NCBI GenBank assembly: GCA_018524725.1
Contig: JAEUWP010000207.1
Location: 434,001-498,000, forward strand
From: Podaxis mareebaensis
Taxonomy: Eukaryota > Basidiomycota > Agaricomycetes > Agaricales > Agaricaceae
DNA: 64,000 bases
Direction of reading: 5' to 3'
Under the pieces are notes generated by a model that saw nothing but the letters and a program-made list of their open reading frames with translations, was not told where the DNA came from and made no database searches. The first letter of the stretch is position 1, and each line of letters starts with the position of its first letter. Positions 29,492 through 38,243 of the stretch are shown one piece after another. The translations under genes and the position numbers were made by a program.

Positions 29492-31212
<1,721 letters not shown>

Positions 31213-31419: not shown

Positions 31420-34400
31420 CTAATTAACCACTTGGGATTTGAGCGCTCCAGAGAGGACATTTCCTCCTGCGACAGGTCGTGCGAGATGGTTCTCCCCCGC
31501 GTTAACGAGGAAGTTGGCCATTGCAAACCCATCCAAATTGCGGAAAGCTGCACAGACGTATGAGCAAACGGATAGAATCGAAAATCATAGCCACCTAAAG
31601 ACACTCACTGACGTTCCTCATGGCGTAAAAAGTTGCATTGAGAGTCTTGGGTGAAAGGGCAAGCGTGAAGAAGCCCTTGAAGAAGCCCTCACTCCACTGC
31701 AAGTCAATGTTATCCCTAACATATATCGAGGAGAAATTGACAGCCTGGCCGAAGTCTCCTGGGTGTCCTCCTGGGGAGGTCACCGACGTCCCAGCGAACT
31801 CAACGCCAATGGCGCCACGCCCAGAAACAGGATCATATCTGTAAGGTATGTAACTCAGCGATTCGTGAACATTGTTGTTAAGCAGAATGCTGACGTCATT
31901 GTGTCATTTGCGTCTGTAGATGGGTCATGTGAACATTGCCTCTCTAGACTCAAATGCTGTACTTACGCGCAAGGTCAGAGACCCAGTTGGCATGACTGTC
32001 CCCAGCCAAGATGACCGTGTTGCTGATGTCGTTGTTGTATAGGTGATCGAGGATGCGGTTTCTGTTCGCGCGGTAGCCATCCCAGGCGTCCTAGGGGTTA
32101 ACAAATTTCTCAGTTGGTACCTCGCCTGATTGGGCAGACGCATGAGCCTTACGACGTTGATTGCTTTGGAGGTATGGAACTGTCACAATAATGGAAATTA
32201 GCGAACCAAGTCAAAACTCACAGCCTTGTAGATTGAGTTGAGTGAACACGATTTGTTGACTGCGTTCTCAGCGTTGAGACATCGGTTGACCCGAGATACA
32301 GACGAATCACATACCCAACGATACGCCAAACTGCCCCGCGAGATTTTGATTCAGAAAGCGTGTCCATAAGCCCTGCATTGTCCGAACTTTTGGTAGATGT
32401 TCAAAGGAGAAATGGTCAGATTTACGAACATTTCTCTTGATTGGGACCCATTAAGGATCGGCGTGGTTCATCGGCGAGTGAAGCGACAACTATGAAGACG
32501 GTGAGGCTTGGTTAAACACATCGAGTATCGGTATATCAGAGTGGATCAGGAGCCTCACATGCTAAAGACACAAGTTACTGAAAGATCCATGAAAGAGAAT
32601 GCAAAAGCTTACCTCTATTGTACCCAAGCTGTACGTGAAACAAGGCTTTGGTCAGTCGAGATATCCACAACGACGCAAGAAAGAATCTACATCAGTAATA
32701 TCACGGTCATACTGACCTGTAAATGTTCAACTCGAAGTTGTTCTTTCTGGTGGACTGTATGAACCACTCACGAGTGTCGAGCATTGACAGGTCAAGTAAT
32801 TTTCCGATTTGGAAGTTCCTCCAGATGCGGAGTTGGTCTTTGGCATCCACTTGGCGGATGGGCATCCATTCGTGGTAGGCACGGACGCCAGCAAGTTTCC
32901 TGTCGGTGAAGCATGCACCGGAAGGTGAGAATGTACATCCTGCAGCTGTGTCGTTGGAATCTGATGTGCCTGCTTTCCACGCATTGTTTGCAATCTGAAG
33001 TCGGCGGTATCAGACGAGAAGATGAATGGAAATGCCCCGATGCTTGCCTCGTGGTCATCCTAGTAACACGGGGATGATGAGCTGAGAGCGCATAATTGGT
33101 GTGATCAATCATTTGTGGCGTACCCTGGAGGAGTCGGTGAGTGTTTTTCTGTAGCCATAGGGATATAGCGATAACTCACCAAACAGTGATCCAGGGAGCA
33201 GACTCGTGAGCGAATTGCAAATCAGGATCGGTCCTATATTGTCCCAAGCGCTGCCGATAGTCATGGATGGTAGCCAACTCCCGACCGAGGACAGCGCGAC
33301 CAATACGTGCCCTTTGGAGTTGATCAGCACAAGCACATCTTGGGATAAAATAGGCCACATACCCATTACCGGGGGATTCATATATCTAGCTCAAGCTTAA
33401 GTCTTGGACTACAAATAGTATGGAGATTATGACACTCACGTAATCGCCCAGATGGACGAAGAGGTCAGCAGTGGTATTGCGTGTAGCAAACCCGTAAGCA
33501 TTAAACCATCCTGTCTTATCCGTCAGATGGTTGCGATAACATTAATACGAAAACTGCACTTACCAGCTTGGAACTGAGAACAGGAGAAAACAGCGAGTGT
33601 CAGCGGTTTGCCACCGTTCACCTCTTCGGCAGGTGCTAACGGAAGCAGGAATCAGGCTATTAGCTGTCATCTCACAGCCAATTACAAGGTAAAAGACTCA
33701 CTGTCGGCGCCGGCGAGTGTCCTTGTTTTTCCAACGGGGCTAACTATCCCTGGGTTGGTACAGTCCGCAAATTGGAAGAAATATTTCGTGTCGGGTTTCA
33801 GTTTGGTTGCCTCAACCTTAACTGTAAAATCGATATCGTAGGTGGTGAATGCTTCTCCCGAATCCACAGGATGTTCGAGATCCTGCGTCGTCCCTATTTT
33901 GAAGGAAACGCACACAGGCACGCTTTGATCTGGCAATTGGCCAGAACTGGTTGGAAGCGGTTCGGCACGCGTCCAAAGAATAATGGACGTATCAAATGGG
34001 TCGCCCTGGAACCAGCAAATGTCATCGAGTCAGCCCGATTCGGGCTGGCAACAAACATCCAAACATACGCTTGCAACTAAACATGGGTGGGCTTAGCCAC
34101 ATGGCTAGATATTGCGTACGAGGGCTTACCGGAGTGCGTAAAGTTCACACCCGAGCTCCAAATGGAAGGGGCCTTGGAGTATCTCAGAGATAGCCACAGT
34201 GAGTCTGTGATGAGAGTCCCGTACATTACTGAAATCAGAACCGAAAAAGCCTGGGTAAAGCTCATCCTTGAATCGTGCGGCGTCGACCGTGTCCCTCCTC
34301 GCAGGATGTATGTTCCTCCGACTTAGCGCGACCGTGTCATGGGCGAACTTGTCTTGGAATTTAATAACCACGCCACGCTTGAGAAATACAGGACTCACCT

Positions 34401-34506
34401 GAGGTTCATCAAGGAACGGCGAACGAAAAACCAAGTTTTTGTCAAACTTAACGACGTTGGCCGATATTGCGGTAACAGAAAGCAGAAGCGCGAATGAGTG
34501 GTGCAT
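31420..34506 (-). CDS. PhoD-type alkaline phosphatase, paralog 1 (22 coding exons)
   Basis: Secreted metal-dependent phosphatase or phosphodiesterase, predicted by family. Start at 34506 (MHHSFALLLSVTAISANVV, a signal peptide). In order: WSSGVNFTHSVASGDPFDTS, ILWTRA, a PhoD_N Ig-like domain (about 33700-33960), LAVFSCSQFQAGWFNAYGF, LFVHLGDYIYE, LATIHDYRQRLGQYR, ITVWDDHEIANNAWKAG (metal-site region), LDLSMLDTRQYDRDITD, RRSLMGPNQEKW, DAWDGYRANRNRILDHLY, VILAGDSHANWVSDLA, and a C-terminal domain ending LKSQVVN at 31420. About 21 introns cut it, leaving exons of 8, 23, 1, 12, 26, 16, 11 and 19 bases. It is the tandem copy of the gene at 35198-38243. No frame break was found once the microexons are used. 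Confidence 0.9.
31895..31913 (-). other. 19-base microexon, PhoD paralog 1 (HANDTMT)
   Basis: ACGCAAATGACACAATGAC between CTACAG and GTCAGC. Joins SDLA to YDPVSGRGAIGVEF. Confidence 0.75.
32153..32163 (-). other. 11-base microexon, PhoD paralog 1
   Basis: CAATCAACGTC between CCAAAG and GTAAGG. Gives QGSINVDAWDGYR; only an 11-base (3n+2) exon keeps DAWDGYR in frame. Confidence 0.65.
32613..32628 (-). other. 16-base microexon, PhoD paralog 1 (LGYNR)
   Basis: CTTGGGTACAATAGAG between GTACAG and GTAAGC; continues into VVASLADEPRRS. Confidence 0.8.
32691..32716 (-). other. 26-base microexon, PhoD paralog 1 (QYDRDITD)
   Basis: Between TTTACAG and GTAGAT. Joins LDT-R to give LDTRQYDRDITD. Confidence 0.8.
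33048..33059 (-). other. 12-base microexon, PhoD paralog 1 (DDHE)
   Basis: GATGACCACGAG between TTACTAG and a GC donor (GCAAGC). Encodes exactly the Asp-Asp-His-Glu motif; the next exon starts IANNAWKAG. Confidence 0.85.
33124..33124 (-). other. Single-nucleotide exon, PhoD paralog 1
   Basis: The exon ending ITVW minus one base stops at ...TTTG, then GTGAGT starts a 55-base intron ending CTCCAG. One G follows, then GTACGC starts a 64-base intron ending TTACTAG before GATGACCACGAG. The lone G completes TGG (Trp) and restores the DDHE frame. Confidence 0.75.
33363..33385 (-). other. 23-base exon of PhoD paralog 1 (IYESPGNG)
   Basis: Bounded by GAGCTAG and GTATGT. The following intron (33312-33362, 51 bases) is absent from the paralog, where the same coding stretch is continuous. 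Confidence 0.7.
34069..34076 (-). other. 8-base microexon, PhoD paralog 1 (VAS)
   Basis: TTGCAAGC between GTTTAG and GTATGT. Completes HS-VAS-GDPFDT, the conserved entry to the PhoD core. Joining the flanking exons directly puts GDPFDT out of frame. Confidence 0.85.
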
Positions 34507-35197: not shown

Positions 35198-38100
35198 CTA
35201 ATTCACCACCTGAGATTTTAACGCTCCAGACAAGACCTTTCCACCTGCAACAGGACGAGCGAGGTGATTCTCTCCAGCATTGACCAGGAAAGTAGCAATA
35301 GGGAAACCGTCTAGGTTCCGGAAAGCTGGAAACGGACACGAATGAAAGAGGGTTGTGAAATGTCAGCAAAGTACACTTACTGACGTTCCTCATGGAGTAA
35401 TAAGTTGCGTTGAGGACCTTCGGTGAAATCGCCAGTGTAAAGAAACCCCTGAAGAAACCTTCACTCCATTGCAGATCGATATTGTCTCTGACATAGATGG
35501 AAGACACATTAACGGCGGCATTAAAGTCGCCTCTGTCGAATGGTCCTGTCGTAGAAGTCACCCCAGTACCAGCGAACTCGACACCAATCGCGCCACGTCC
35601 AGTGGTAGGATCATATCTACTCATCCAGTTATTGGGTTTCACTCGGTGCAACATTTAAACTCACGTCATTGTATCATTTGCATCTACCGAGTGAGTGCAT
35701 TAGTATCACTCGCAAATGTGAAAAGAGCAGCTCACTCACGGGCGAGATCGGACGCCCAATTTGCATGACTATCTCCTGCCAAAATGGCAGTGTTGCCAAT
35801 GTTGTTATGATACAGATGATCAAGGATGCGATTTCTATTGGCGCGATAACCATCCCATGCATCCTAATTTATGAACGGCTGTCAATATGTCGCATCGAGG
35901 AACAAGACATTGAGAACTTGCGAAGTCGATATCTGCATGGTGAAGGTTACTCGAAAGGCCAGTAAGTTGACGCATGGGCTTCACACGTACCTCCTTGACG
36001 GACGAGTTGAGAAAAGACGATTTGTTGGCTGTGATCTCAGTGAGGTATGGGAAAGGTTATGGCGAGAAGAAATCCACTTACCCAACCACGCGCCAAATGG
36101 CTCCGCGAGACTTGGACTCTGAGAGGGTATCCATAAGCCCTGTTAGCTGGAACTTTCAATACAATGTTCAAACGCTCGATCTTCGTAAAATGAACGAACA
36201 CTTTTCTTGATTAGCTCCCATCAAGGACCTCCTGGGCTCATCAGCAAGTGATGACACCACTGCAAGTAGTCATTGATTTCGCTGAATGGATGAACAGACG
36301 ACAATAAAATGGATTTACATTCTGCAGTGGCACACAGAGAAGTTTCAGGTTGTTAGAAAAGTGAAAGCAGTATAAGACTCACGGTGATTGTATCCAACCT
36401 ACGCAAAGAGGTGCGATGATTAGCCATGCCATCCAAGGAGGATTATGGGTGTTACGCACATCAGTCACGTCGCGATTGTATTGGCCTTAAAGCTTCCTGG
36501 TTAGTACTTGCCGTCTTGTGGGCCTAATAGTCACTTACGAGTGTCCAACATCGATAAATCAAGTAATTTTCCAATTTGGAAGTTTCTCCAGATGCGGAGT
36601 TGGTCTTTGGCATCAACCTGTCGAATAGGCATCCATTCATGATAGGCACGGACACCAGCGAATTTCCTGTCCGTAAAGCATGCACCGGAGGGGGAGAACG
36701 TGCATCCTGCAGCTGTGTCGTTGGAATCCGTCGTGCCCGCTTTCCAGGCGTTATCCGCAATCTGTAATGAGGCGCGGTAGGCACACGATCAGGAGTTGGG
36801 TAAATTTGTGCCAACCTCATGGTCATCCTGAGAGGATAATGCGAGCAGTTTGTTTGATATTTTTGAATGTGGTACCAGTGGCTTGACTTACCCTAGTAGT
36901 AGTAAAAGACGAGGTAGTGATCAGAGAAATTCTATGCAGGAAGATGAAAGCGTACCTACCAGACTGTGATCCAGGGAGCAGACTGATGGGCAAACTGCAA
37001 GTCAGGATCTGATCTGTATTGTCCTAAACGTTGTCGGTAATCGTGAATAGTCGCCAATTCGCGACCAAGGACGGCGCGGCCGATTCTTGCACCATTGCCA
37101 ATCGATTCATATATCTATATCAAGTTCAATTCGAAGGCTATCGGCACAAAAGATCGAGGTAATGGCTTACATAGTCACCAAGATGAACGAAGACGTCTGC
37201 AGAAACATTGTGTGCTGCAAACCCATAAGCATTGAACCATCCTTTTCCATAGTTTCAGTGCTTTGACCTCACAATGTCACCGAACGATGATGCTCACCAG
37301 CTTGGAATTGAGAGCAGGAGAAGACAGCAAGGGTCAAAGGTTTTCCTCCGTTCACCTTTTCTGCCGGTGCTACAGTCGACGGAGTCAAGGAAATGCGGCT
37401 GTTGTATTCCAGTACGGCTCACTGTTCCTACTCGCCAAAGTTCTGGTCGTCCCAACAGGACTGACTGTTGTTGGATTGGTGCAGTCGGCAAACTGGTAGA
37501 AGTACTTTGTGTCGGGTTTTAGCCCAGTAGCCTCGACCTTGACGGTGAAGTCTACATCATAGCTAGTAAATGCCTCGCCTGAATCGACTGGCCGACTGGC
37601 CGACAGATCGCTTGTAGTTCCGATCTTGAAAGAGACGCATACTGGTACACTTTGATCTGGCAATTGACCGGAGCTAGATGGCAGCGGTACAGCGCGAGTC
37701 CAGAGAATGATTGAAGTGTCCAAGGGGTCGCCCTAATCACCGAATATCTCAGGCTGACGTCAGGTTAGATACAGGTCAAACTCACACTTGCAACTAAACA
37801 CCTGCTCAGCCACGGCTAGCGAGGCTCTACATCTCCCACTTCGAGGACTCACCTGAATGGGTAAAATTGACTCCAGAGCTCCACACGGATAATGCCTACA
37901 TTTTTGGGTATTAGACCCCATCGGAAGATGATTTAAACATCAATTGAGGTCCTTACATTGCTGAAATCGGAACCGAAAAAGCTAGGGTAAACTTCGTCTT
38001 TGAATTGAGCGGCATCGACAACGTCCCTTCGTGCAGGCTGAATGTTTCTGCGGCTTAACGCGACTATGTCGTGAGCGAACTGTTTACCTGACTTCAGTGG

Positions 38101-38243
38101 TGCTATACACTTTTAGCGACCCCGAAACGTCCCACCTGAGGTTCATCGAAAAACGGTGAACGGAAGGCCAAGTTTTTATCAAACTTAGCCACATTGCCAA
38201 GTACACCTGCAGTAAGGAGCAAGGAAATAGCCAGGAAGCGCAT
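35198..38243 (-). CDS. PhoD-type alkaline phosphatase, paralog 2
   Basis: Tandem copy of the preceding gene, same strand. Start at 38243 (MRFLAISLLLTAGVLGNV, a signal peptide), then AKFDKNLAFRSPFFDEP, SGVNFTHSVASGDPLDTS, ILWTRA, the PhoD_N domain (about 37400-37720), SCSQFQAGWFNAYGF, IYESIGNGARIGRAVLG, ITVWDDHEIADNAWKAG, LDTRQYNRDVTD, ADEPRRSLMG, QQIVFSQLVRQG, DAWDGYRANRNRILDHLY, YDPTTGRGAIGVEFAG and a C-terminus ending LKSQVVN at 35198. The last 41 residues differ from paralog 1 at four positions. Intron positions match paralog 1 except that the intron at 33312-33362 is missing here. Same family role; the two copies may differ in regulation. Confidence 0.9.
35665..35683 (-). other. 19-base microexon, PhoD paralog 2 (HANDTMT)
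   Basis: ATGCAAATGATACAATGAC between CGGTAG and GTGAGT; joins to YDPTTGRGAIG. Confidence 0.8.
35922..35932 (-). other. 11-base microexon, PhoD paralog 2
   Basis: ATATCGACTTC between CATGCAG and a GC donor (GCAAGT). Gives QGDIDFDAWDG in frame. Confidence 0.75.
36383..36398 (-). other. 16-base microexon, PhoD paralog 2 (VGYNH)
   Basis: GTTGGATACAATCACC between TGCGTAG and GTGAGT; continues into LVSSLADEPRRS. Confidence 0.78.
36460..36485 (-). other. 26-base microexon, PhoD paralog 2 (QYNRDVTD)
   Basis: Between CTTTAAG and GTGCGT; same size and phase as in paralog 1. Confidence 0.78.
36816..36827 (-). other. 12-base microexon, PhoD paralog 2 (DDHE)
   Basis: GATGACCATGAG between CTCTCAG and GTTGGC. 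Here the donor is GT, unlike the GC donor in paralog 1. Confidence 0.85.
36892..36892 (-). other. Single-nucleotide exon, PhoD paralog 2
   Basis: ITV-TG, donor GTAGGT, acceptor CTACTAG, one G, donor GTAAGT, acceptor CTCTCAG, then GATGACCATGAG. The G completes Trp. Flanking splice signals are good and the arrangement is the same as in paralog 1. Confidence 0.78.
37796..37803 (-). other. 8-base microexon, PhoD paralog 2 (VAS)
   Basis: TTGCAAGT between GTTTAG and GTGAGT; same size, phase and product as in paralog 1. Confidence 0.85.

Follow-up and report, generated by a model that had tools for sequence, protein, structure and literature searches.

The guanine at position 33124 on the minus strand is, with high confidence, predicted to be a true and constitutive one-nucleotide exon of a fungal gene for a PhoD-type alkaline phosphatase (paralog 1, P1), and it would lie between two unremarkable short spliceosomal introns (55 and 64 nt). 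An AG acceptor and a GT donor separated by exactly one base are also found at the matching codon of a second gene (paralog 2, P2; G36892), the tandem neighbour of P1 at a distance of 3.8 kb. The finding in mushroom PhoD thus appears broader than first noted, since it involves two genes and is probably a clade-wide feature. The window, i.e. the whole stretch of 64,000 nt that was analysed, comprises positions 434001-498000 of contig C168 in a genome of 36.95 Mb and 429 contigs; the actual splicing, its order and efficiency, and the age of the exon are what we infer from sequence.

Two PhoD genes with a predicted single-base exon

The models of both genes were assembled by joining exons by hand from the window sequence into complete open frames (Table 1). 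Their products are predicted to be PhoD-type alkaline phosphatases, with Pfam scores above the cut-offs for PhoD (PF09423; 347.4 bits in P1 and 337.2 bits in P2) and PhoD_N (PF16655; 82.9 and 83.9 bits, respectively). The layout described there for the focal interval (an exon ending in ..ITV-TG, a 55-nt intron, G33124, a 64-nt intron and the DDHE exon) was found correct to the base on re-reading, and its frame argument stands as well: excision of all 120 nt yields TGG ATG ACC, and a single 120-nt intron was rejected for this frameshift. DDHE is itself encoded in P1 by a separate 12-nt exon followed by a GC-AG intron. Introns of this type account for 2 of the 43 introns of both genes (33047-32995 in P1 and 35921-35864 in P2, both on the minus strand); they occupy different positions, each directly 3' of a very small exon (12 nt in P1, 11 nt in P2). 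For the exon preceding DAWDGY an 8-nt version was rejected in favour of 11 nt in both genes, because it leaves the protein one residue short with respect to the transcript-like homologs described below.

Table 1. Coordinates in the window of the modelled PhoD genes and of their focal and very small exons and introns
Feature	Position	Strand	Description
PhoD paralog 1 (P1)	31420..34506	(-)	23 exons, CDS 1833 nt, 610 aa, ATG to TAG, without internal stop
P1 exon 9	33180..33311	(-)	3' end ..ATCACTGTTTG, encodes ..ITV-TG, phase 2; from sequence reading and gene model
P1 intron 9	33125..33179	(-)	55 nt, GT-AG, GTGAGT..CTCCAG
P1 exon 10	33124..33124	(-)	single G, last base of the Trp codon; sole enumerated GT-AG isoform with WDDHE
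P1 intron 10	33060..33123	(-)	64 nt, GT-AG, GTACGC..TTACTAG
P1 exon 11	33048..33059	(-)	12 nt, GATGACCACGAG, Asp-Asp-His-Glu
P1 intron 11	32995..33047	(-)	53 nt, GC-AG type, GAG/GCAAGC..TTCAG; the P2 donor here is GT
P1 8-nt exon	34069..34076	(-)	VAS of the VASGDP stretch; P2 counterpart 37786-37793
P1 3-nt exon	32559..32561	(-)	CAT; P2 counterpart AAT, 36319-36321; residues agree with transcript-like homologs
P1 11-nt exon	32153..32163	(-)	P2 counterpart 35922-35932, followed by a GC-AG intron in P2; from comparison with transcript-like homologs
PhoD paralog 2 (P2)	35198..38243	(-)	22 exons, CDS 1845 nt, 614 aa; gene model
P2 intron 8	36893..36959	(-)	67 nt, GTAGGT..CTACTAG
P2 exon 9	36892..36892	(-)	single G finishing the equivalent Trp codon
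P2 intron 9	36828..36891	(-)	64 nt, GTAAGT..CTCTCAG
P2 exon 10	36816..36827	(-)	12 nt, Asp-Asp-His-Glu

All 43 introns of P1 and P2, the four focal ones included, are 48-69 nt long, and a fused intron of 120 nt (P1) or 132 nt (P2) would therefore be an outlier, 14 and 17 sd away from the 39 other introns (mean 56.5 nt, sd 4.5). The four focal introns (55/64 and 67/64 nt) look normal for both genes, with site percentiles from 18 to 90: donor and acceptor rank at the 64th and 33rd percentiles of the 39 other introns for P1 intron 9 and at the 18th and 46th for P1 intron 10, and the splice sites of P2 intron 8 are at the 33rd and 23rd. A branch-like CTNAY motif, present in 25 of the 43 introns of both genes, is missing in P2 intron 9. 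We also enumerated the GT-AG isoforms of each interval, with no more than two introns per isoform, a minimum intron length of 40 nt and donors taken from the final 40 nt of the upstream exon onward. Of the 25 isoforms obtained for P1 and the 64 for P2, 4 and 9, respectively, have an open frame that finishes in DDHE, and only one per gene, the one-nucleotide exon model, ends in WDDHE, in agreement with the initial claim that nothing but the single G gives W-D-D-H-E. The mean site score of this model was 6.2 in P1 and 6.1 in P2 (4.6 and 5.3 for the runner-up); the enumeration, like the shuffles and the P1/P2 intron comparison reported below, relied on models with an 8-nt version of the exon at the I18/I19 junction, so that the values for this junction and the training sets are slightly off.

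Both the reading frame and the conserved protein sequence depend on the single G, as indicated by the WDDHE isoform, by the Trp of bacterial PhoD and by the Pfam score. The two PDB sequence matches, the bacterial PhoD chains 2yeq (TWDDHE) and 9uya (IWDDHE), align here to the P1 model without gaps, and deletion of Val-Trp lowers the PhoD score from 313.8 to 299.3 bits (-14.5). Downstream, DDHEIANN of P1 is aligned to DDHEVENN of 2yeq; the P2 motif reads DDHEIADN, with Asp where the first Asn stands. In the available part of a report on Bacillus subtilis PhoD (PMC4223295), variants of the metal ligands D265, N271 and N272 are inactive, whereas activity is strongly reduced in those of D266; judged by their spacing, these four residues would be those of the DDHE..NN motif. 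A distant PhoD gene on contig C87 (L005) has Tyr before DDHE and, as read, is without an intron between the two.

P1 and P2 share 85% protein identity, with a dN of 0.099 (NG86) and a dS beyond the reach of this method. Their intron bodies are no more similar than shuffles (mean 0.51 versus 0.49 over 21 intron pairs; 0.53/0.48 and 0.51/0.51 for the focal introns), thus the AG-G-GT layout has outlasted the turnover of the intron sequences. The presence of the one-nucleotide exon in both old tandem paralogs further argues that it is older than their duplication. P1 intron I8 (33362-33312, minus strand, 51 nt) is absent from P2 at the equivalent codon, a gain or a loss since the duplication. Around these genes, long open frames on the plus strand (29986-31212), which we take to resemble a chitinase-type glycoside hydrolase, head toward the 3' end of P1, and a tRNA detected with Rfam (45 bits; 40852-40771, minus strand), not reported by ARAGORN, may contain an intron.

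Annotated homologs and the age of the exon

The best 120 of the thousands of matches of each protein search were pooled into 144 distinct homologs, all of which were examined: 131 named proteins and 13 unnamed lgn/jgi entries. The latter are presumably transcript-like, the whole protein being uninterrupted in each, and 8 of the 13 can be so classified in a strict sense, as their longest contig (at most 2855 nt) is too short for the gene with introns. The closest named protein among the matches listed is that of Macrolepiota fuliginosa MF-IS2 (82% identity). Within the same set, W-DDHE occurs in 13 of the 13 transcript-like entries versus 44 of the 131 named proteins (Fisher p 2.3e-6) and in 8 of the 8 strict entries (p 2.7e-4), p values that are indicative only, the sequences being related. 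Of the 131 named homologs listed, 87 are not clean in the sequence before or at DDHE, and some of the 44 clean ones may lack the second intron. In an alignment of the listed matches, both junctions next to the Trp proved to be frequently disrupted, in 82 and 83, respectively, of the 131 named proteins and in none of the 13 transcript-like ones. Among the named proteins, the figures are 76 and 75 for the junctions of the 3-nt exon, 27-40 for the 8- and 11-nt exons and 3-23 for the remaining junctions. Since the 3-nt exon shows disrupted junctions at nearly the same frequency as the Trp, disruption marks very small exons and not specifically one nucleotide. The transcript-like proteins listed are also disrupted elsewhere (I1 in 4 of 13, I21 in 3 of 13), which argues for natural length variation at those junctions.

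Several annotated proteins carry footprints of the predicted introns, that is, translated intron sequence that we decoded via the genetic code from the protein sequence alone (slashes mark splice boundaries). The first, W with Y, C, W, L or F as the next residue, is expected when a TG/GT donor is overrun (TGG T..) and was found in 15 of the 131 named proteins among the matches listed; the second, W-V-[R/S/C/G], corresponds to an overrun G/GTNNG donor (TGG GTN NGN) and was found in 16. Several of the second-footprint proteins run on for the length of an intron and end in Gln (CAG) before DDHE. A plain TGG/GT intron would also leave the second footprint. One of the 131 listed proteins (P0129, Phellinidium) reads W-M-T-M-R, the frameshift expected at TG/GATGACNATGAG if the single G is omitted. 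Two Armillaria proteins with 93.9% identity carry the first and the second footprint, one each, at one and the same residue, a pair that fits TG/GT..AG/G/GT and does not fit one intron.

The first footprint or the frameshift appears in Agaricales (Armillaria), Russulales (Peniophora) and Hymenochaetales (Sanghuangporus and Phellinidium); Polyporales (Irpex) show weaker signs, namely Val-Trp deletions and the second footprint only. This distribution suggests that the structure is shared by several Agaricomycete orders and that the one-nucleotide exon was present early in Agaricomycetes. By contrast, all listed matches from Rhizoctonia/Ceratobasidium (11), Auricularia and Exidia (2) and Hysterangium/Ramaria/Sphaerobolus (3) are clean, the order of some of these genera being assumed by us and one genus per order looked up; a gain of the second intron after the clean lineages branched off would be the simplest reading. 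No intron-bearing PhoD relatives were found in a search of viral contigs. We consider it likely that the one-nucleotide exon is older than the divergence of Agaricales, Russulales and Hymenochaetales, and probably also that of Polyporales, and that PhoD genes have retained it since then within a string of very small exons (1, 12, 3, 11 and 8 nt).

Predicted splicing and alternative readings

In the splicing that we propose, each short intron would be recognised as a unit, across the intron, and introns 9 and 10 of P1 would leave one after another, because a single G is common to the first acceptor and the second donor, two sites that could hardly be bound together. Either order of removal would restore TTTG+G+GATGAC and with it Val-Trp-Asp-Asp-His-Glu. 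Prior removal of the first intron barely alters the donor score of the second (from 5.4 to 5.1 in P1 and from 9.4 to 9.1 in P2), thus neither order is favoured by that measure.

In other systems a very small exon may be skipped, and this general precedent is what speaks for mixed splicing, in which the exon would be skipped or the introns retained in some transcripts, regulating the amount of active enzyme. We regard this as unlikely, given that the other open isoforms of the enumeration lose or replace residues before DDHE and offer no sensible second protein.

A single long intron with an abnormal boundary, the G being contributed by the acceptor side (GT..TA in P1, GT..CA in P2) or by the donor side (TG..AG), would produce a mature mRNA identical to that of the one-nucleotide exon. 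Hence the proposal of the initial annotation that a different cDNA junction could refute its reading does not hold for these cases, since the mature cDNA GTTTGGGATGACC is the same with the one-nucleotide exon, with the TG..AG donor shift and with the GT..TA acceptor shift. Such an intron is nevertheless very improbable: a non-AG acceptor or a non-GT donor would be required in both genes, its length of 119-132 nt compares with a usual 48-69 nt, and the well-placed AG/G/GTRNG of both intervals would have to be coincidental. In dinucleotide shuffles, AGGGTRNG leaving both flanking introns with at least 45 nt arose in 0 of 5000 for the P1 interval and in 8 of 5000 for that of P2, the bare AGGGT being found in 33 and 86 of 5000, respectively. 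A third PhoD copy (L019; G000:C327:155500-159000), with in-frame stops in its aligned stretches and thus pseudogene-like in appearance, speaks in the same direction, as its outer splice sites are readable, 129 nt apart, yet no AG-N-GT lies between them. As a single decayed copy, L019 is weak evidence.

An intron of 125 nt in P1 (137 nt in P2) starting at ACT/GTTTGG (ACA/GTCTGG in P2) would remain in frame in both paralogs and yield ..PWIT-DDHE without Val-Trp, the form annotated in 22 of the 131 named homologs among the matches listed. This reading is scarcely credible, however: its donors score 1.3 and -1.2, below all 39 training donors (median 7.8), the intron has twice the normal length, and it would remove two residues ahead of the metal-ligand Asp that are kept in 13 of the 13 transcript-like proteins and in both bacterial chains, at the cost of the 14.5 Pfam bits mentioned above. 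Finally, single-base errors do occur in draft assemblies, but the chance that the assembly lacks one base of a normally framed gene with a single intron is practically negligible, as it would require the identical error at the identical codon of two paralogs, both with doubled intron length, and the annotations of many other genomes falter at the matching place. The one-nucleotide exon proposed in the initial annotation is, in turn, supported by intron length, splice-site scores, isoforms, the paralog, the bacterial Trp and the homologs.

Known one-nucleotide exons and implications for fungal PhoD

Exons of this size were initially described as very rare in any eukaryote, which is fair, with the reservation that one-nucleotide exons have already been published in plants and Fusarium; basidiomycete PhoD would be a further case. 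The nearest is that of the CYP621A P450 genes of Fusarium, whose junction is confirmed by SRA reads and which the accessible portion of the report (Nelson and Syed 2026, PMC12940212) calls the second example of a one-nucleotide exon and the first in a fungus; VPS55 is not mentioned in that portion. As in P1 and P2, a single G lies there between AG and GT (AGGGT) within a conserved motif, the total interval is about twice the usual intron and annotated models are usually wrong. CYP621A is, however, an ascomycete P450 in which the G occupies the middle position of a Gly codon, whereas P1 and P2 encode a basidiomycete metallophosphatase in which it ends the Trp codon ahead of the metal-binding DDHE; moreover, the next exon of P1 and P2 is only 12 nt long, and two paralogs of one genome keep the one-nucleotide exon, predicted in their case from DNA.

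In Arabidopsis APC11 a one-nucleotide exon is proven by base-swap minigenes, according to the part of the study available (Guo and Liu 2015, PMC4674806). It is constitutive, lies between two GT-AG introns and is needed for the frame, as predicted here for P1 and P2; unlike theirs, the APC11 base is an A, in a 422-nt stretch formerly annotated as one intron. The accessible text of a further report (PMC8831610) describes one-nucleotide microexons in APC11 and VPS55 of land plants, found with RNA-seq and RT-PCR, which resemble the PhoD exon in being long conserved and absent from reference annotations; they differ in being plant genes, and VPS55 has copies with and without the microexon. The PhoD interval also recalls fungal stwintrons, for which the available part of PMC12403724 describes two adjacent short introns and a required successive removal. 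In stwintrons the inner intron sits within one of the splice signals of the outer, whereas the P1 and P2 introns have complete signals with one exonic base between them; a stwintron is ruled out, given the uninterrupted donor and acceptor of both introns. One-base exons are also reported from mitochondria, e.g. in placozoan cox1. We found no one-nucleotide exon in a basidiomycete, or in PhoD, in the open-licence papers searched.

If spliced as predicted, the exon of P1 and P2 would be a further independent case of the smallest possible exon, seemingly deeply conserved, and the handling by the spliceosome of two splice sites with one common base would become testable across many natural variants. 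Gene finders that disallow exons below a few bases cannot model P1 and P2 correctly, and enzyme surveys and structure predictions based on models that are not clean (87 of the 131 named proteins among the matches listed) inherit a wrong active-site sequence. If its early origin holds true, this would be the oldest and most widespread one-nucleotide exon known in fungi, unrecognised in many sequenced mushroom genomes, whose annotated PhoD would be wrong at the active-site motif.
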